From: Arcobacter sp. CECT 8985
GTDB lineage: Bacteria; Campylobacterota; Campylobacteria; Campylobacterales; Arcobacteraceae
Length of the DNA stretch: 64,000 nt
Assembly (NCBI RefSeq): GCF_004116495.1
Contig: NZ_PDKC01000002.1
Location: 1 to 64,000 of the forward strand
Direction: 5' to 3'
Part shown: piece by piece, positions 42,915 through 59,548 of the stretch
Numbering within the stretch: position 1 is the stretch's first letter
Layout of the letters: each line of letters opens with the position of its first letter
Made by a program: the position numbers and the translations under genes
The notes under the pieces: model-generated
What the model was told of the DNA's origin: nothing
The model's input: the letters and a program-made list of their open reading frames with translations, nothing else
Database searches by the model: none

Positions 42915-43232
42915 TTAACCCAATGAACATTTCATGCAATTATTAATATCATTACAAGTGGCACATGCTGGGGCCGTTTTTCCTATGCAGTTATATAAAT
43001 AACGTTTCCACCTCATAGTTTCAGGTTTTAACTTTGCTAAAGTAGTAAAGTTATGTGTCATGAGTTTACCCATTTCCCTACGATTTTTTAAACCCAAATC
43101 TGAATATAGGTGTCCCATTTTTATTGATGTTTTAGCAATCCAAGGAGCTAATGCATTTTTAGCATAAGAATTATGTGCATGTTTTTGCAACAACTCTAAA
43201 ATTTCACTTTCCATAATTTCTAATTCATTCAT
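42915..43232 (-). CDS. nifQ: Short NifQ-like protein
   Basis: A 105-aa protein matching the C-terminal half of NifQ, which supplies molybdenum for FeMo-cofactor. The LGLKNRREMGKLMTHNF stretch and MRWKRYLYNC are the conserved core. The cysteines follow as C-x7-C-x2-C-x5-C, with a further MKC. Typical NifQ is 160-200 aa, so the N-terminal part is missing or reduced. The start overlaps the LRR gene by 8 bases and has AGGAGA. It ends the nifV operon. Confidence 0.8.
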   Translation of the reverse strand: MNELEIMESEILELLQKHAHNSYAKNALAPWIAKTSIKMGHLYSDLGLKNRREMGKLMTHNFTTLAKLKPETMRWKRYLYNCIGKTAPACATCNDINNCMKCSLG

Positions 43233-44229
43233 AACTTTCTCCTAATATATCAAGATAGTTTAAATTCAAATTTTCAGGTATTTTAATTTTATTATTGTGT
43301 TTTATATATAAAGTTTTTAGGTTATTTAATTTATATATTTTATTTGGAAGAGCCTTTAGTTTGTTATCTTCTAAATCTAACTCTTCAAGTTTAATTAGTT
43401 TATCAATATCTTCAGGTAAGTTAGTTAAACAATTTGTACTTACACTCAAAATAATTAGATTATTTAAATTCAAAATGGAGTTTGGTAACTCTTTTAAAAA
43501 ATTTTCATCAAGTATTAATACTTCAAGTTTACATAATTTTTTGAAATTAATATCTATTTTCTTAAGATTATTATTTGTTAGGTTTAGTTTTGTAAGAGAT
43601 TTTAGTTCTTCAATTAATTCTATATTCTCTAATTTATTTTCTTCTAAAAGTAGTGTTTTTAACTCTTTTAATTTAGAAAATGATTTTGGTAAATTGGTTA
43701 ATTTATTAAATGATAAATCAAGATAATATAACTCATTCATCTTTTCAAATATATTAGGGATTTTCTTTATTTCATTTGTATCAAATGATAAATATAATAG
43801 TTTGTCAAGTTTTTTCAAATCTTTTGGAATATGTTTTATTTTATTTGCTGCAAGAGTCAATCTTGTTAAATTTGTCAATAAACATAGTTCTTTTGGAATC
43901 TTTTTTATTCTATTACCATTTAGATTTAAAATTAAAAGATTTGATAATTTTGATATAGATACAGGAATATCTTCAATCAAATTATTTTCACACTGTAGGT
44001 TTTTTAACTTTTGCAACTCTCCAATAGAAGAGGGCAATGATTTGATTCTATTATTTGATAGTTTTAGTACTGATAAGTTTTTTAATATGCAAATACTTTC
44101 TGGAATATTTTTGATTTTTTGTTTACTTAAATCTAAAATAGTTATTTTTTCAAAATTATCTATACATATTAAATTTTCAAAATTATTTGATTTTATCCAT
44201 TTGATAAAATCATTTTTATAATCTTGCAT
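43225..44229 (-). CDS. Leucine-rich repeat protein in the nifV operon
   Basis: A 334-aa protein made of about 11-12 tandem leucine-rich repeats of 23 residues (pattern LxxLxLxxNxIxxIPxxIxxLxx), spanning about residues 28-320. There is no signal peptide, membrane segment or catalytic domain. It has an AAGGA ribosome binding site, is 1 base from the BFD-like gene and overlaps nifQ. It is probably a protein-binding scaffold in nitrogenase assembly or control; this is inference from position. Confidence 0.8.
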   Translation of the reverse strand: MQDYKNDFIKWIKSNNFENLICIDNFEKITILDLSKQKIKNIPESICILKNLSVLKLSNNRIKSLPSSIGELQKLKNLQCENNLIEDIPVSISKLSNLLILNLNGNRIKKIPKELCLLTNLTRLTLAANKIKHIPKDLKKLDKLLYLSFDTNEIKKIPNIFEKMNELYYLDLSFNKLTNLPKSFSKLKELKTLLLEENKLENIELIEELKSLTKLNLTNNNLKKIDINFKKLCKLEVLILDENFLKELPNSILNLNNLIILSVSTNCLTNLPEDIDKLIKLEELDLEDNKLKALPNKIYKLNNLKTLYIKHNNKIKIPENLNLNYLDILGESYE

Positions 44230-44230
44230 A

Positions 44231-44473
44231 TCAATCCTTTAATCTTTCATTTGCTGCATCAATTAAAAATGAAATTTCTTCATAATCAATTTGCCCAAAT
44301 TTAACCATATTAAAAAGACTCATTAATGCTTTTCTACAGCAAGTCTTATTACAACCAGTAACCAGTTTTTTAGCTTTTTTATATGGAAGTTCCGTATTTT
44401 TAAAAATTTCAATAGCCTCTTGAATAGTTTTTTCACCACATTCACAAATTCTTTTGTTTTTTAAATCTTCCAT
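44231..44473 (-). CDS. BFD-like [2Fe-2S] protein of the nif operon
   Basis: An 80-aa protein with a C-x-C pair at residues 10 and 12 (ICECGE) and a C-x3-C-C near 42-47 (GCNKTCCR). The pattern is like the bacterioferritin-associated ferredoxin/NifU central [2Fe-2S] domain, though the second pair is spaced differently. It probably carries a cluster for electron transfer or cofactor assembly. It sits between the CCE_0567-like gene and the LRR gene. Confidence 0.65.
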   Translation of the reverse strand: MEDLKNKRICECGEKTIQEAIEIFKNTELPYKKAKKLVTGCNKTCCRKALMSLFNMVKFGQIDYEEISFLIDAANERLKD

Positions 44474-46655: not shown

Positions 46656-48095
46656 TTAATTTACTTCCAACTCTTTTTGTGAAAAGAAGTGTTTTTTAGT
46701 AGCTTCGAAAACTGATTTTTCTATTGGTTGTAAAGCATAAGAATCATCAGTAATTAAATCTATTTTTCTTAATTCATCTTGTGGGCACTCTCCAATTTTT
46801 TCTGTAAGTAATAAGTCTACATCTTTAAGAGTATTTTTTATCTCTTCAATTGGATATGAACCATCGCAATCTTCTGGTCCTTTACAATAAGCATTTTCTA
46901 CTTTTCTATGCATTACAAATTTAATAGCTTTATCTCCAGCTTCATATATTAAAAATTCTGTTGCACTACCAAAGTGAAGATTTATTGTACCTTCTCCTGC
47001 TGTTGTAACTGCAATTAGTTTTGTTTGATTATTTGAACTTAACTGTTCTTTTGAAGCTTGTTCTATTTTTACTCTTTCATTTGCACCTTCAAGTGCTTTT
47101 CTCCAATTTTCAATTAGTTCATGTCTTTGTTTTCTAGCTTTTATATTATAAATATCTTCTAATTCTTCCCATGATTTTGTTTTAAATACATCATCTGTGT
47201 ATTCATTTGATCTATCTTCACCAATAAGTCCTACTGCATCAGCTCTACATTGTCTACAGTGTGCCATTAGTTTCATGTCCATTCCACATGCTTCTTGTGC
47301 TTGCATTACTTCTTGATCTGTTGCACTTTTTTGGCCATTTAGTCCATAATAAGTTCCAAATTCAGGTTTAGATAATAAAGGCATAATATTGTGTAAAAAT
47401 ACATTTAACTCTTTTAGTTTTTTTGCTACATTTGCTACTTCTTTATCATTTACTCCAGGAATTAATACAGAGTTGGCTTTTACTAAAATACCTCTTTGTG
47501 TAAGCATTTTTATACCTTTTAGTTGTTGTTCTAAAAGAATTTTGGCTGCTTGTTTACCAAAGATTTTTTTATGATTCCAATGTACCCAAGGATATATTTT
47601 ACTTCCAATTTCACCTGTTTGATCTACGCTATTTATTGTAACAGTTACATGATCAACATTATATTTTACAATTTCATCAACAAACTCTGGAAGTCTTAAT
47701 CCATTTGTAGATATACAAAGTTTTAAATCAGGAGCTTTTTCTTGAAGAAGTTTAAAAGTTTCAAATGTTTTTTTAGGATTTGCTAATGCATCACCTGGTC
47801 CTGCGATTCCTACAACTGAAAGTTGTTGAATTTTTCCGCCAACGAATAATACTTTTTTTACTGCATCTTGTGGATTTAATTTAGAAGAAGTAACTCCAGG
47901 TCTTGATTCATTTGAACAATCAAACTTTCTATTACAATAATTACATTGAATATTACAAGCAGGTGCAACTGCTATGTGGATTCTTGCATAATGTTGATGA
48001 GCACCTTCGCTATAACAAGGATGGTTATTGATTTTATCCATTATATTTTGTTCTAAATTTTCTTGTGTACTACTTGATGTACAAGAACAACTCAT
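46656..48095 (-). CDS. nifB: FeMo-cofactor biosynthesis protein NifB
   Basis: A 479-aa radical SAM enzyme that makes NifB-co, the 8Fe-9S-C precursor of FeMo-cofactor. The radical SAM Cys motif ACNIQCNYC (residues about 50-58), CNRKFDC and SVVGIAGPGDALANP are visible. A C-terminal NifX-like domain covers about 360-475 and starts LIAVTTAGEGTINLHFGSA. The N-terminus SCSCTSS adds cysteines. The ribosome binding site is AAGGAGAG. Confidence 0.97.
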   Translation of the reverse strand: MSCSCTSSSTQENLEQNIMDKINNHPCYSEGAHQHYARIHIAVAPACNIQCNYCNRKFDCSNESRPGVTSSKLNPQDAVKKVLFVGGKIQQLSVVGIAGPGDALANPKKTFETFKLLQEKAPDLKLCISTNGLRLPEFVDEIVKYNVDHVTVTINSVDQTGEIGSKIYPWVHWNHKKIFGKQAAKILLEQQLKGIKMLTQRGILVKANSVLIPGVNDKEVANVAKKLKELNVFLHNIMPLLSKPEFGTYYGLNGQKSATDQEVMQAQEACGMDMKLMAHCRQCRADAVGLIGEDRSNEYTDDVFKTKSWEELEDIYNIKARKQRHELIENWRKALEGANERVKIEQASKEQLSSNNQTKLIAVTTAGEGTINLHFGSATEFLIYEAGDKAIKFVMHRKVENAYCKGPEDCDGSYPIEEIKNTLKDVDLLLTEKIGECPQDELRKIDLITDDSYALQPIEKSVFEATKKHFFSQKELEVN

Positions 48096-48271: not shown

Positions 48272-49516
48272 TTAATTCATTGTCATTTCTATAATTTTTC
48301 CATTTAGTATATGAGAAAACTCTACACCAAAATCATAACAATCTTGAAGTTCTTCTTCTGTAGGGATTAATTTTATCTTTATATTTTCTATAGGAGGTAC
48401 TCTAAAATTTAGTGATTTTAATCTATGTATAATCATATCAACGGCTTCTCCACTCCAACCATAACTTCCAAAAGCTGAGCCTAATTTACCTTTTTTTTCT
48501 AATAACATCATACAAGATAGTAGTTCCCATACTGGCTTAGGTGCATCTGCATTAATAGTTGGGCTTCCTATTAAAATTCCATCACTATCTTCTAAAATAT
48601 TAATCATATTAGATTCTTCAATTGATGCTAAATCATAAACATTAGCAATTATGCCATCAACACTTTCTGCACCTTCATATATAGCTTCAGCCATATCTTG
48701 AGTATTTTTATAGCTTGTTAGATAAAAAATTGATAAAGTTTTTTTACCATTTGAACTTAATTTATAACTATTTTGACTCCATTTTCTATAATAATCAATA
48801 TATTTTTTTGGATTATCTCTTAAAATAGGACCATGTAATGTTGCAATAAGATCAATTTCAAGTTTATCATATAGTGTAATAGCATTTAATACATATGATT
48901 TAAATGGTCGCATTATATGATCATAATAGTATTTAAATGAATAATGAAAATCTCCAACTAAATCATTAAATAATCTTCTATCATGATAATGACTTCCAAA
49001 AACATCTCCAGAGAAAAGAAGTTTATTCTCTTGTACGTATGAACTCATTGTTTCTGGCCAATGTAGATAAGGAGTTGTTAAAAACTTAATTGTTTTATCT
49101 CCCATTTTCAAAGATTTATTAGTCCATACAGTTTCAAAATCTATATTTTCATTATGTGTAATTGCTTTTAACATTGCAGTTGCTTGTGGTGAAATTAATA
49201 CTTTTGCTTGAGGGGCTCTTTTTATTAATTCTGGAATTGATCCTGCATGATCAGGTTCTAAATGATGTGATATTACATATTTTATTTCATTATATGTGCA
49301 AAGTTTTTCTACTTTTTGAAAAAAAATATCTTGAAACTCTAATTTTACACCATCTAATATAACAACACCTTCATTTGTTTTGATTAAATATGCATTATAA
49401 GAAGATCCATTTGCAGTTTTCATAATTATATCAAATGTTCTAATATTTGGATCAAAAACACCTATAAAGAATATATTTGGTGCTATTTCAATTGGTTCTT
49501 CATTTGTTTTATTCAT
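48272..49516 (-). CDS. Flavodiiron protein (FprA-type A flavoprotein)
   Basis: A 414-aa protein with an N-terminal metallo-beta-lactamase-like diiron domain and a C-terminal flavodoxin domain (from about 255). Diiron ligands are seen in HHLEPDHAGS, YLHWPET, FSGDVFGSH and LHGPIL. FprA proteins reduce O2 or NO without making superoxide, here probably to protect nitrogenase. The start is ATG 49516; a TTG at 49528 with a nearby GAGAAG is possible. It follows the NifX-like gene by 1 base. Confidence 0.92.
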   Translation of the reverse strand: MNKTNEEPIEIAPNIFFIGVFDPNIRTFDIIMKTANGSSYNAYLIKTNEGVVILDGVKLEFQDIFFQKVEKLCTYNEIKYVISHHLEPDHAGSIPELIKRAPQAKVLISPQATAMLKAITHNENIDFETVWTNKSLKMGDKTIKFLTTPYLHWPETMSSYVQENKLLFSGDVFGSHYHDRRLFNDLVGDFHYSFKYYYDHIMRPFKSYVLNAITLYDKLEIDLIATLHGPILRDNPKKYIDYYRKWSQNSYKLSSNGKKTLSIFYLTSYKNTQDMAEAIYEGAESVDGIIANVYDLASIEESNMINILEDSDGILIGSPTINADAPKPVWELLSCMMLLEKKGKLGSAFGSYGWSGEAVDMIIHRLKSLNFRVPPIENIKIKLIPTEEELQDCYDFGVEFSHILNGKIIEMTMN

Positions 49517-49517
49517 A

Positions 49518-49877
49518 CTATTTTGCAATTATTCTTCTCATCCAAATTGGAGGATTTTCTTGCATTTTTATTAATTTATTTAAAGCATCTTCAATTTTTT
49601 CATTTTCATTTGCTGCTTTAATTGGGAAAATTTTAGAATCTTTTACAAGTAATGAAGCTTTTGGACCAATTTGCTCTACATATAAAATATCACTATTATC
49701 TAAACATTGAATTTTATATGATAATTTATCTAGTTCATTATCTATTTTATCTTTAGAATTTATTGCTTTTATAAATTTATATGAGTTATTATTTATTTCA
49801 TATATAAAAAACTTTTTGCACCAACCAAAATGTTCATTTATATAAATATTATCTTTTGAAGCAAATGCAATTTTCAT
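49518..49877 (-). CDS. NifX/NafY-family cofactor-binding protein (paralogue 1)
   Basis: A 119-aa dinitrogenase FeMo-cofactor-binding-type protein. It opens MKIAFASKDN, then EHFGWCKKFFIYE, in the pattern of NifX and the NifB tail, and ends ENPPIWMRRII like NifX (NPPPFIKRI). It should bind a FeMo-cofactor precursor. It has its own sigma-54 promoter and is followed directly by the flavodiiron gene. Confidence 0.82.
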   Translation of the reverse strand: MKIAFASKDNIYINEHFGWCKKFFIYEINNNSYKFIKAINSKDKIDNELDKLSYKIQCLDNSDILYVEQIGPKASLLVKDSKIFPIKAANENEKIEDALNKLIKMQENPPIWMRRIIAK

Positions 49878-49946: not shown

Positions 49947-51821
49947 CTATTCTTCTTTGTTTGTTACTTGAGTATTTAACTCTTTTTGTGTTACTAGCTC
50001 TTTATTTCTAAACTCTTTTTCATCTGCATTTTTTACAATTAGTTTTGCAATACTATCTGTAACTTTGGAAACTTCATATGTTTCAGTTGCAACAGCTGCA
50101 TATTGTTGTGTTTGAGAATCTATTTGTGTTACTGCATCGTTAATGTGTTCTATATTTGTAAGTTGTTCTTTACTTACATTTTCTATATCATTTATTAATA
50201 TTGCTGTTTGAGAAATACTCTCATTTAATTGTGTGTATCCTTCAATCATATTTGAAGCTATATTTTTACCTTCATTTGCTTTAAAAGTAGCATTTTCGAC
50301 TATATCTTTTATCTCTTTTGCCGCTTGAGCACTTCTTGATGCTAAGTTTCTCACTTCTTGTGCCACAACAGCAAAACCTTTACCTGCTTCACCAGCAGTG
50401 GCAGCTTCTACTGCAGCATTTAGTGATAGAATATTTGTTTGAAATGCAATCTTATCTATTACTAATATTGCTTCATTTATAGTAGATACTTGATTATTAA
50501 TATCTATCATTGCTTCAGAAGTTTTATTAGCAAGAGTTTCTCCATTTTTTGCAGATTGAGTAACTTCATTTGAAAGTTTTGCCATTTTATCAATATTCGA
50601 AGTATTACTTCTTATATTTGTAGTAATCTCTTCTAAAGTTGCAGAAGTCTCTTCTAAAGTTGCTGCTACACTATTAGAACTTTGATTAAGTGTATCTACA
50701 TTTGCAAGTAAAATATCAGAACTTTTATCTAATGTAAGTCCATTTGATTTATTTTCAATTAGCATTTTTGTTGTAGCTTCACCTAAATTATTTACACCTT
50801 GTGCAAGTTTTAAAAGCTGTTTTTTTAATCCTGTCTCATCAATAGAATCTAAATAGTTGTAGTTTGTATATTTATCTAAAGTAATTAAAACATTATTAAC
50901 ATTATCTTCAAAGTTTTCAGCCATTTCATTTATTACATCTTTTAGGTGCGTTAATATAGGATTTGAAACATTAGATTTTAACCTTTGAGATAAATCTCCT
51001 TGTTCAAAGTTATTTAGAACTTCAATGGCTTCATCTATAAGAACTCTATCTTCTTCTAAAGATTTTTTTGTTTTTATGATATTCTCATTTACTATTTTTG
51101 CCATTTGTCCAAATTCATCTTTATTATTCTGTTCTAATAACTCTACTTCTGTTGTATTTTGATTTAAATAATCAAAAAATGACAATAATCCTTTTTTAAA
51201 GTTATTAATTGATTTTATAATTGTTCTTGATATAAAAAATGAAACTAAACCAAAAGTAATGAATGAAAAGATTGCTAATGATATTAAAATTATATTTAAT
51301 CTAAATGACCAACTTTTTTTTGCTTCTATTGCGTGATCATGAATTCTATTTAGTCCATTTTCGATAAATAAAACTAAATTATTCATTTTTTCTAACATTG
51401 ATTGAGTCTCATTTGTTTCTGTTGTATTTCCACTATATAAATTATCAATTCTTGCAGTAGAGTATTTTTTATATAAATCAAGATAGCTATTTATATTTTC
51501 TAAAGTTTTATTTATTGTTTCAATATCCTCTTTTTTTAGCATATTTTGATGATTTTTTAAGCTGTTTACATCTTTAAAAAGTTTTTTAAACTCATCAGAT
51601 ACGATTAGTGCAAAATCTTCATCTAGTTCTGCAACAAACTGCTTAAATGATATTCTTGCATGTAGAACTTTTATGATTGTTTCATCTGTTTTTATCGCAA
51701 TTTCAACTGAATTATTTGCTTTTTTATTAAAAAAATTAATTGTAGCTGCTGAAATAATAAGAATTGAAAAAAAGATAATAGGAAATATTAGTAGTTTTTT
51801 ATTTGTAGAGAGTGAAGTCAT
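49947..51821 (-). CDS. Methyl-accepting chemotaxis protein within the nif cluster
   Basis: A 624-aa transmembrane chemoreceptor. The first helix is about 9-29, a periplasmic four-helix-type sensor about 30-180 and the second helix about 177-200, followed by HAMP-like segments and the signalling hairpin with [21 protein letters not shown]. At the tip the usual EAARAGE reads EAATAGE. No C-terminal CheR-binding pentapeptide is seen. The ATG follows AAGGA; no sigma-54 site was found upstream. Confidence 0.9.
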
Positions 51822-51902: not shown

Positions 51903-52640
51903 TTATAAAATGATGATTTTTATTTTTTCATCTATGATTTTTTTCATTGTTTTTGAAATCATTTCATATGTTCCTGTTGAAGCAATAGAACAACCTACAC
52001 AAGCTCCTTGATAAGCAAGTCTTAACTCAATATCAGGATTATTTATATAATCAATTAATACAATATTTCCCCCATCTTTTAGTAAGATTGGTTTGATAAA
52101 TCTATCAAGTGAATCTTTGATTTTTGTTAACTGTTCATCTTTTGTAAGAGTTCTAAACTCTTCATTTATTTTCATTTCATTACTTGTTTTTTCTTCTTTT
52201 CCTGTAAGTTGAATTTTTGCTAATGTATGACCATTATTTGCAGCTTTTATCATACACTCAAATCCCTCTTTTATATTACTTATTTTATTTCTATCTTGAA
52301 GTAAAATTAGTGCTAATCTAAATGCTGCTTGTGTATGATTTTTTTCTACTGCTTTTCTAAAGTATTTAGTAGCTTTTTTTATATCTTCATCAACACCGAT
52401 TTTTGTTTGGTACATTAATGCAAGATTAAAATTAGCAGATGCATTATCATAACTACTCGCTTTTTCAAACCACTGTTTAGCCAAAGTGTAGTCTTTACAA
52501 ACACCTTCTCCTTTTAAATACATCAAACCAATATTTGTCATAGCTTGATCATTATTTTTTTCACTCTCTTGTTGCCAAATATTAAGAGCTGTTTCGAAGT
52601 CTTTGTTTTTATATGCATTTAAAGCTTCTTGATGTTTCAT
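51903..52640 (-). CDS. Sel1-repeat / NifU C-terminal (NFU) fusion protein
   Basis: A 245-aa protein. The N-terminal 150 residues hold Sel1-like repeats (AMTNIGLMYLKGEGV, ASANFNLALMYQTKIGVD, AAFRLALILLQ). The C-terminal 75 residues form an NFU domain with CVGCS (C-x2-C) near 217. NFU domains carry [4Fe-4S] clusters for delivery to apo proteins. The fusion suggests a scaffold that recruits cluster delivery to nitrogenase proteins. A 12-base gap links it to the next gene upstream. Confidence 0.82.
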   Translation of the reverse strand: MKHQEALNAYKNKDFETALNIWQQESEKNNDQAMTNIGLMYLKGEGVCKDYTLAKQWFEKASSYDNASANFNLALMYQTKIGVDEDIKKATKYFRKAVEKNHTQAAFRLALILLQDRNKISNIKEGFECMIKAANNGHTLAKIQLTGKEEKTSNEMKINEEFRTLTKDEQLTKIKDSLDRFIKPILLKDGGNIVLIDYINNPDIELRLAYQGACVGCSIASTGTYEMISKTMKKIIDEKIKIIIL

Positions 52641-52649
52641 TTAATATCC

Positions 52650-53039
52650 TTATTTTTTACTGCATCCACAAGTACAAGCTGAACTATTACCTGAATCAAG
52701 TAATAAATTACAATTGTTTTTTGTAACAAGTTTTGTATTATTATTTGAAAATTTTTTATAAATTTCATCAATTGTTAAATTTTGTTTTTCACATGTATAG
52801 ACTTTGATATTTTTTTTATCTAAAGTTTTAAAAACTCCATCTCCCATATGATAAAAAATTGTACTAGTAACATTTAAATCATCTAAGAAGTTTGCTGTTT
52901 CTATTCCATTACCACTTCCTCTATTTTGGCAGAAACTAACATCTCCAGATTTAGAATCTACAAGTGCGAAAAAATTTGCATTTCCAAAATATTGTGAAAT
53001 AGTATTAGAATCTTTACTATCTATTGGTATTGCTATCAT
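52650..53039 (-). CDS. NifX/NafY-family protein with Cys-rich tail (paralogue 2)
   Basis: A 129-aa member of the dinitrogenase cofactor-binding family (start MIAIPIDSKDSNTISQYFG, then FALVDSKSGDV). It ends in a Cys-rich tail (SACTCGCSKK) that could bind metal. The ATG at 53039 has AAGGAGATGATA upstream; a longer frame starting at a TTG (53069) is not supported. It has a sigma-54 promoter and is divergent from nifE. Confidence 0.8.
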   Translation of the reverse strand: MIAIPIDSKDSNTISQYFGNANFFALVDSKSGDVSFCQNRGSGNGIETANFLDDLNVTSTIFYHMGDGVFKTLDKKNIKVYTCEKQNLTIDEIYKKFSNNNTKLVTKNNCNLLLDSGNSSACTCGCSKK

Positions 53040-53063: not shown

Positions 53064-53080
53064 ATGCAAAAACTATTCCT
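53064..53080 (-). promoter_or_regulatory. Sigma-54 promoter of NifX-like gene 53039
   Basis: Minus strand AGGAATAGTTTTTGCAT, GG-N10-GC, 25-41 bases before the ATG. It is back-to-back with the nifE promoter, 22 bases apart. Confidence 0.9.
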
Positions 53081-53102: not shown

Positions 53103-53119
53103 TGGAATAGTTTTTGCAT
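53103..53119 (+). promoter_or_regulatory. Sigma-54 promoter of nifE
   Basis: TGGAATAGTTTTTGCAT with GG at 53104 and GC at 53116. It lies 32-48 bases before the nifE ATG. Confidence 0.92.
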
Positions 53120-53151: not shown

Positions 53152-54492
53152 ATGGTTAATAAGAAATTAATTAGAGAACTTCTAAATGAGAGTTCTTGTA
53201 CTCATAATAAAACAAAAAAATCATCATGTGACAAGCCCAAGCCAGGTGCAACATCAGGTGGTTGTGCTTTTGAAGGTTCACAAATTTCATTATTTCCATT
53301 TGCAGATGTTGTTCATTTGGTACATTCTCCAGCAACATGTATTGGTGCATCATGGGAAACAAGACAGACTTTGACTTCTTATGAAAAACAAAATAATACT
53401 CTTACTGGTTACACAACAGATGTCAATACTAATGATGTAATCTTTGGAGGAACTAAAAAGTTAGAAGACTCTATTGAGTATATAGTTAAACATAAAAATC
53501 CCAAATCTATTTTTGTATATGAAACTTGTGTTACAGCAATGATTGGTGATGATATGGATAATGTCTGTTCTAGAATGGAAGAAAAACATAAAATACCTGT
53601 AGTTGTAATTCACTCTCCTGGATTTGTTGGAGGGAAAAATTTAGGGTCAAGACTTGGTGCTGAGTCTGTTTTTCATCAATTAATTGGGACAAAAGAACCA
53701 AAAGAGATTCATCCTTTTGGTATTAATTTAATTGGTGAATATAATGTAACAGGAGATATGTGGCAATATATTTCTATTTTAGAAAAAATAGGGATTAAAA
53801 TTATTTCTACTTTAGCTGGAGATGGAAGAGTGGAAAATATTCAAATGGCACATAGGGCAAAATTAAATGTAATTGTATGTGCTAAATCTTTAATAAGTCT
53901 TACAAGAAAAATGCAAGAAAAATATCAAATTCCATATGTAAGCGTATCTTTTTATGGAAAAAGAGATACATCAAATGCAATTAGAAGTATTGTAAATGCT
54001 TTTGGAGATGAGAATTTAAGTAAAAAAGCAGAAGAAATAATAAAAGCAGAAGAGAGTAAATTAGAAGAGAAACTAATACCTTATAAAAAGTTATTTAAAG
54101 GTAAAAAAGCCATTTTAAATACGGGAGGTAATAAATCTTGGTCTATTGCTAGTGCTTTGCAAGATATAGGACTTGAAGTAGTTGCAACAAGTGTTAAAAA
54201 AGCAACTTTAGAAGATAAAGAGATTGCTTCAAAATATGTTGATATTTTGATGACAAATCCAGGTGTTGAACAAGCAAAACTAATTGATGAACACAATGTT
54301 GATATTTTACTTGCAGGAGGAAGAAGTTTATATACAGCAATTAAGAAAAAAGTTGCTTTTGTAGATGTAAATCAAGAAAAAAAAGTAAGTTATGGTGCAT
54401 ATAATGGTCTTATTAATTTGGCAAAAGATGTCTCATATGCAGTAAATAATAGAGTTTTTAAAATTGTAGGAAGTCCTGAACCTTGGAATTAA
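53152..54492 (+). CDS. nifE: FeMo-cofactor scaffold subunit NifE
   Basis: A 446-aa NifD-like protein that forms the NifEN scaffold with NifN for maturing NifB-co to FeMo-cofactor. Cluster cysteines appear in GATSGGCAFEG (residue 41), HSPATCIGASWETR (63) and YETCVTAM near 124. The GEYNVTGDMWQ motif near 196 and NTGGNKSWSI near 322 fit NifE rather than NifD. Its sigma-54 promoter is close. nifN is 2 kb downstream, with two other genes between. Confidence 0.92.
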   Translation: MVNKKLIRELLNESSCTHNKTKKSSCDKPKPGATSGGCAFEGSQISLFPFADVVHLVHSPATCIGASWETRQTLTSYEKQNNTLTGYTTDVNTNDVIFGGTKKLEDSIEYIVKHKNPKSIFVYETCVTAMIGDDMDNVCSRMEEKHKIPVVVIHSPGFVGGKNLGSRLGAESVFHQLIGTKEPKEIHPFGINLIGEYNVTGDMWQYISILEKIGIKIISTLAGDGRVENIQMAHRAKLNVIVCAKSLISLTRKMQEKYQIPYVSVSFYGKRDTSNAIRSIVNAFGDENLSKKAEEIIKAEESKLEEKLIPYKKLFKGKKAILNTGGNKSWSIASALQDIGLEVVATSVKKATLEDKEIASKYVDILMTNPGVEQAKLIDEHNVDILLAGGRSLYTAIKKKVAFVDVNQEKKVSYGAYNGLINLAKDVSYAVNNRVFKIVGSPEPWN

Positions 54493-56098: not shown

Positions 56099-56404
56099 AT
56101 GGAAGAAGAAATAAGAGATAGATATGTGACTTTTGACAATATAGATTGTTATAAAGATGCAGCAAATGTATTAGATGCATTATATGAACTTTTTGAACAA
56201 AATCCTGAATGTAAAAATAGTTTTTGGGATAGATTTGATAGTTTTATTCCTAAAAACTATCATGAAATATTAGCAAAAGAGAATGAAAAAGACATTTTAT
56301 ATCATATTTGTTCAAATGTATTTTATATTTCTGATTTATTTGAAGAGTATGATTTTGAAAAAGGAATAAATCTTCTAGATAGAGTTGAATTTGATTGTTG
56401 CTAA
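56099..56404 (+). CDS. cowN: CowN, carbon-monoxide protection of nitrogen fixation
   Basis: A 101-aa protein matching CowN, which sustains N2 fixation in the presence of CO by protecting the Mo nitrogenase. The RYVTFDNIDC start, SFWDRFDSF and YISDLFEEYDFE segments and the closing Cys-Cys match the family. A sigma-54 promoter precedes it and another lies between it and nifN. Confidence 0.88.
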   Translation: MEEEIRDRYVTFDNIDCYKDAANVLDALYELFEQNPECKNSFWDRFDSFIPKNYHEILAKENEKDILYHICSNVFYISDLFEEYDFEKGINLLDRVEFDCC

Positions 56405-59218: not shown

Positions 59219-59548
59219 ATGAAAACAGTTGATGAATTTTATAAATTAACAAATACAGAAGATTACTTTAACTTTTTCAATATTGAGTATGACCAAAAGT
59301 TAATTAATGTAAAAAGATTTCATATTATGAAAGAGTACGGAAATCTTATTAAAAAAGGTTTAACTTCAATAAAAGAGGAAAATAAACTATTAGATTTTTT
59401 TAAATTCTCATTATTAAGAGTATACATGGATTTTAAAAATGGTTACTCTCCTAGTGCTGCACAAGTTTGGAATATGTTTGAAAATGGAAAATTAAGTGGA
59501 TGTTCAGCATGTTCATCTGGTTCGACAGGAGGAAATTGTGGTTGCTAA
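59219..59548 (+). CDS. nifW: Nitrogenase-stabilising protein NifW with Cys-rich tail
   Basis: A 109-aa protein with the NifW layout (FYKLTNTEDYFNFFNIEYDQ, then NVKRFHIMKEYG and YSPSAAQVWNMFENGK). NifW helps protect or mature the MoFe protein. The last 17 residues are a Gly/Ser/Cys tail with CSAC and CGC, unusual for the family. The nifZ start lies within its end. Confidence 0.86.
   Translation: MKTVDEFYKLTNTEDYFNFFNIEYDQKLINVKRFHIMKEYGNLIKKGLTSIKEENKLLDFFKFSLLRVYMDFKNGYSPSAAQVWNMFENGKLSGCSACSSGSTGGNCGC

Follow-up and report, generated by a model that had tools for sequence, protein, structure and literature searches.

A Sel1–NFU fusion protein of nitrogen-fixing Campylobacterota as a candidate nif-dedicated iron-sulfur carrier

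NfuA (TIGR03341) is an NFU carrier in which the NFU domain is joined to an A-type domain, and its N-terminal module is thought to aim the carrier. NifU of the Azotobacter type (TIGR02000) likewise ends in an NFU domain and is associated with nif genes; it is reported to donate clusters to NifQ (PMC11605450). In solo Nfu proteins, such as Paenibacillus YutI and Helicobacter pylori Nfu (HP1492), a single NFU domain with a CxxC motif is the only Fe-S module, as in the protein described here. Deletion of the NFU-only gene yutI halves nitrogenase activity in Paenibacillus polymyxa, and either nifU from K. oxytoca or nfuA from E. coli makes good the loss (PMC8038749). H. pylori relies exclusively on a NIF system made up of NifS, NifU, and Nfu, the last of which binds [2Fe-2S] or [4Fe-4S] clusters (PMC8144621). 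The Sel1-like repeat proteins HcpC, LpnE, and COA7 share a Sel1 solenoid with the protein described here and offer its closest solved folds. To our knowledge, none of the three has been described with an iron-sulfur NFU domain.

The window analyzed here is a stretch of 64,000 nucleotides from Arcobacter sp. CECT 8985 (contig NZ_PDKC01000002.1), and it forms part of a large nif cluster in this Campylobacterota (Arcobacteraceae-type) genome. It encodes a protein that unites both of these modules:

51903-52640, minus strand: Sel1–NFU fusion gene (open reading frame list, Pfam, structure, conservation)
51915-52121, minus strand: NFU (PF01106) coding part of the fusion gene (genome search, 52.5 bits, above the curated cut-off)

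The open reading frame has an ATG start, an AAGG ribosome site, and a TAA stop, and it encodes 245 amino acids. Residues ~1–145 make up a Sel1 solenoid (PF08238, three repeats, 73.4 bits against a cut-off of 30.7), and residues 174–242 match the NifU/NFU family (PF01106, 50 bits against a cut-off of 27), as do all 22 aligned members of the fusion family. The CVGC motif corresponds to C214-V-G-C217, and its CxGC pattern is kept in 77/77 fusion homologues from a scan of named genomes; the linker between the two parts carries a conserved N159-x2-F162-R163 motif. AlphaFold2 modeling with 22 homologues (mean pLDDT 91.7) predicts an alpha-solenoid formed by helices spanning residues 2–144, a linker, and then the alpha-beta-beta-alpha-beta fold of NFU domains, with a helix at 167–188, two strands, a helix at 223–235, and a final strand. 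Foldseek matches the solenoid to the Sel1 proteins LceB, LpnE, HcpC, and COA7, and a profile search with the C-terminus retrieves NFU1/HIRIP5/AtNfu2. Pfam, the structural model, and the same architecture in ~77 loci thus bear out the sequence-only reading, which had proposed Sel1 repeats fused to a CVGC-bearing NFU domain. Because the architecture is kept in ~77 other loci, the pairing is no chance fusion. Comparison with congeners gives a dN of 0.16, well below a dS of 0.77–0.83 (dN/dS ~0.2), indicating that the gene is under purifying selection.

The fusion differs from each of the described NFU proteins. Pfam finds neither PF01592 (the IscU-like NifU_N domain) nor PF04324 (the BFD-type [2Fe-2S] domain) in it, so that, unlike NifU, it lacks NifU_N and Fer2_BFD; the TIGR02000 model scores 34.6 bits against a cut-off of 273.3. 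It differs from NfuA in having Sel1 rather than an A-type domain as its N-terminal module, and TIGR03341 reaches 24.1 bits against a cut-off of 269. Solo Nfu proteins, in turn, have no Sel1 or HicB-like part and are encoded outside nif clusters, and the solo Nfu domains of Campylobacterota are phylogenetically apart from the NFU domain of the fusion. Among the open papers searched, none contains both Sel1 and "NFU domain", and a single co-mention of Sel1, NifU, and nitrogen fixation is unrelated. With Sel1–NFU, a known type of carrier takes on a new domain architecture, which none of these papers describes.

The fusion gene lies among nif-cluster genes, which include the following, together with two promoter-like sites:

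52650-53039, minus strand: NifX/NafY-like gene (PF02579), upstream of the fusion in the same operon; likely start ATG at 53039
53152-54492, plus strand: nifE, divergent from the fusion operon (TIGR01283, 492.6 bits, slightly below the cut-off of 505.1)
49518-49877, minus strand: nifX, which almost every relative has as the neighbor downstream of the fusion
48272-49528, minus strand: flavodiiron protein gene, a conserved member of the row that holds the fusion
46656-48095, minus strand: nifB (TIGR01290, 581 bits)
42915-43232, minus strand: short NifQ of 105 amino acids, candidate client of the fusion
53103-53118, plus strand: sigma-54-like -24/-12 site TGGAATAGTTTTTGCA, facing nifE; exact motif match
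53065-53080, minus strand: sigma-54-like -24/-12 site AGGAATAGTTTTTGCA, facing the NafY-like/fusion operon; motif match only, one letter off

The window also holds nifN, DUF269, nifW, nifZ, a 2Fe-2S ferredoxin gene, cowN, and nifV, and nifH, nifD, nifK, and nifA lie at its end or just beyond. The NifX/NafY-like gene is the one gene between the fusion and nifE; a gap of 9 nt separates it from the fusion, and it is a conserved neighbor in most fusion loci. The order nifE (divergent), NafY-like gene, cowN (in some loci), fusion, nifX, flavodiiron gene (in some), nifQ (in some) is conserved across four families. The two putative sigma-54 sites point away from each other within the ~110 bp that separate nifE from the fusion operon. 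The window contains 16 matches to the pattern TGG-N8-TTGCW against 4.2 expected, and 0/100 shuffles reach 16. A similar divergent pair occurs in 7/31 related loci, some of which are the same genome twice, versus 7/1550 random segments.

Several further features of these clusters were observed. The tail of the NifX/NafY-like protein, itself a conserved partner of the fusion, is rich in cysteines (CTCGCSKK), and NifW (59219-59548) likewise has a Cys-rich C-terminal tail, GCSACSSGSTGGNCGC. A gene for a methyl-accepting chemotaxis protein (MCP; 49947-51821) separates the fusion from nifX in the window, as it does in the congener G080. The cowN gene, encoding a CO-protection protein, is found inside the cluster at 56099-56404, and in several loci of families f1, f4, f7, and f10 it separates the NafY-like gene from the fusion. 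Against the Pfam NifQ model, the window NifQ aligns with the C-terminal portion only; most NifQ matches in Campylobacterota span only model positions ~45–159, and full-length NifQ is present in three genomes (G216, G424, and G457). A leucine-rich-repeat protein is encoded at 43225-44229, and relatives keep it beside nifV, GNAT, and nifQ. A neighboring Cys-rich protein of 80 amino acids (44231-44473) was considered as the lone BFD part of a split NifU and dropped, as it has no Pfam Fer2_BFD match. In another locus (L011; G068:C1:771474-772777), nifE is apparently split by an in-frame TAG.

A genome-wide search with PF01106 returns three NFU genes: the fusion, a solo Nfu of 92 amino acids, and a canonical NifU of 326 amino acids with NifU_N, Fer2_BFD, and NFU domains. 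This NifU is encoded directly after a NifS that scores above the cut-off of the epsilon-type NifS model, and it accounts for the sole NifU_N (PF01592) domain of the genome (C77:77636-78043). That nifU and nifS were not seen in the window agrees with its content, but the genome encodes both outside it. The IscU-like and ferredoxin-like parts that had been supposed replaced by Sel1 repeats are borne by this three-domain NifU. The set of NifS, NifU, and Nfu fits the H. pylori pattern. A second, nif-linked canonical NifU accompanies the fusion in genomes of f7 and in some of f4 (for example, in G443, fusion at C10:20757 and NifU at C10:24856). Given this coexistence, the fusion would add a carrier step to NifU rather than replace the scaffold.

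The link between the fusion and nitrogen fixation is strong. Among 397 Campylobacterota genomes sampled, full-length orthologues are present in 49/76 nifE-positive genomes versus 0/321 nifE-negative ones, the latter tested at E <= 1e-25 only, so that short forms there may escape. Of the two findings by which the sequence-only reading would have been refuted, a standard nifUS elsewhere is present, but a wide spread among non-diazotrophs is not seen. Four further nif-positive genomes, all from f7, carry short forms of ~150 amino acids in the same gene row. Within the window's own family, 30/32 nif-positive and 0/72 nif-negative genomes have full orthologues, the two nif-positive exceptions being fragmented assemblies of 84–86% completeness. 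Six genera (g1, g2, g8, g10, g13, and g20) mix nif-positive and nif-negative members, and in these the fusion tracks nif with the exception of one fragmented assembly. No member of the fusion family was found in 23/76 nif-positive genomes, chiefly in genus f10 g41 (14/14), indicating that the fusion is not universally needed; f10 g41 keeps the nifE-nifX-flavodiiron row without it and has only the housekeeping NifU and solo Nfu. One genome scored as lacking the fusion (G324) has, at a contig edge beside nifN, a 75-amino-acid Sel1 fragment that is 37% like the fusion (L119:42-269).

The named-genome scan covered ~85,000 species genomes with two peptide patterns, which distant forms can escape, and 78 loci were kept. 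The fusion is present in 77 of them, all with Campylobacterota-type titles (including Arcobacter, Aliarcobacter, Sulfurospirillum, Sulfurovum, Sulfuricurvum, and Sulfurimonas) or from unassigned MAGs, and a cultured diazotroph, Sulfurospirillum arcachonense DSM 9755 (L146), is among the carriers; the remaining locus (L210, from a "Proteobacteria" MAG) has the Sel1 part only. Recognizable nif-cluster genes lie within 6 kb in 73/78 loci, and nifX is just downstream of the fusion in nearly all. Matches in plasmid records were weak, with less than 60% identity; most carry a Sel1 or TPR annotation, and none is labeled NFU or NifU. Since the fusion is found only in nitrogen-fixing Campylobacterota, it probably serves nitrogenase as a dedicated delivery helper.

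Members of the family vary in the modules that accompany the NFU domain. About 40% of the fusions (30/77; for example, L072:7742-8710) have an extra domain before Sel1, in a long form of ~78 or a shorter form of ~55 amino acids, with the motif GDGY...DFPD(I/V)KG.GDT(Y/F)EEA. The window protein and its whole genus lack it. HicB chains, which are antitoxins, rank on top in a PDB profile search with this domain (E 0.005), and PF15919 matches it in 11/12 members, with a best E of 0.015 that falls below the cut-off. Pfam finds nothing decisive on the extension alone, and Foldseek results for the long form are dominated by Sel1 matches. With moderate confidence, these profile matches suggest a HicB-like domain. 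For a fold of the antitoxin type, a position before Sel1 is unusual. At the other extreme, the short forms of the four f7 genomes have one Sel1 repeat or none. In an NFU tree of only 87 columns, all fusion domains stand apart from NifU and solo Nfu with support of 100/99, and the NFU domains of the short f7 forms nest inside the fusion clade, indicating that Sel1 was reduced in f7. Sel1 docking therefore cannot be essential everywhere.

NFU-only proteins can serve nitrogenase (PMC8038749), and for this reason the reading chosen here is that the fusion is probably a nif-dedicated NFU-type [4Fe-4S] carrier with docking modules. We infer cluster binding, dimer formation, a docking role, and a client along the following lines. 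The shared NifS and NifU, whose genes lie outside the window, would build [4Fe-4S] clusters, one of which would be taken up at the Cys-x-x-Cys motif of the fusion's NFU domain. This cluster would bridge two fusion subunits, the arrangement of other Nfu proteins. The Sel1 solenoid, joined by the HicB-like domain in many relatives, may act as a docking arm to nif-specific acceptors, which could be NifB, cofactor carriers of the NifX/NafY type, NifQ, or NifH. NifQ as the specific client was set aside: it is present in 73/76 nif-positive genomes regardless of the fusion, which lends support neither way.

Three other readings were weighed against this carrier. The sequence-only reading had suggested that the fusion takes part of the NifU role. 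As far as this concerns Fe-S supply to nitrogenase, the suggestion is well supported, given the position of the gene and its strict co-occurrence with nif; as a replacement of NifU, with the fusion assuming the scaffold role for nitrogenase, it is rejected. The window's genome does lack a second NifU, as such a stand-in would lead one to expect, but the fusion has neither the IscU-like assembly site nor the [2Fe-2S] domain, a canonical NifS–NifU pair is present, and f7 relatives hold the fusion and a nif-linked NifU side by side, even inside nif clusters. A nif-specific stand-in for NifU is hence very improbable.

Another reading gives the solenoid the leading part: Sel1 would bind and stabilize a nif maturase (for example, NifX, a NafY-like protein, or NifEN), with NFU as a structural or redox module and no cluster donor. 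Sel1/TPR solenoids do bind proteins, an assembly factor, the Sel1 protein COA7 (7mqz), is among the fold matches, and the operon partners of the fusion are cofactor carriers. The NFU domain, however, is the constant part of the family, with an invariant CxGC, while Sel1 shrinks or vanishes in four f7 genomes, and a scaffold or chaperone of this kind seems unlikely. The carrier might instead restore nitrogenase clusters damaged by O2 or NO, together with the flavodiiron protein, and first assembly would then proceed without it. The flavodiiron gene and cowN, which protects from CO, are recurrent neighbors of the fusion, an H. pylori nfu mutant is sensitive to oxidative stress (PMC8144621), and some diazotrophs do without the fusion gene. 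Genus f10 g41, however, keeps the flavodiiron gene without the fusion, and we regard a role in repair or stress as quite improbable.

The supply of Fe-S clusters to nitrogenase is a limiting question for nitrogen fixation in new hosts. If the nif-dedicated carrier reading is true, a carrier confined to nif and equipped with a docking arm would be a simple route from general clusters to nitrogenase, with one shared NifU/NifS. The fusion gene offers a clean knock-out target for a test of this idea. Tentatively, the family may represent an undescribed, phylum-specific nif maturation factor, in which an NFU carrier whose docking modules can be exchanged (HicB-like, Sel1) would link housekeeping NifU/NifS to the FeMo-cofactor pathway, and lineages such as the window's family would thus need no nif-dedicated NifU.
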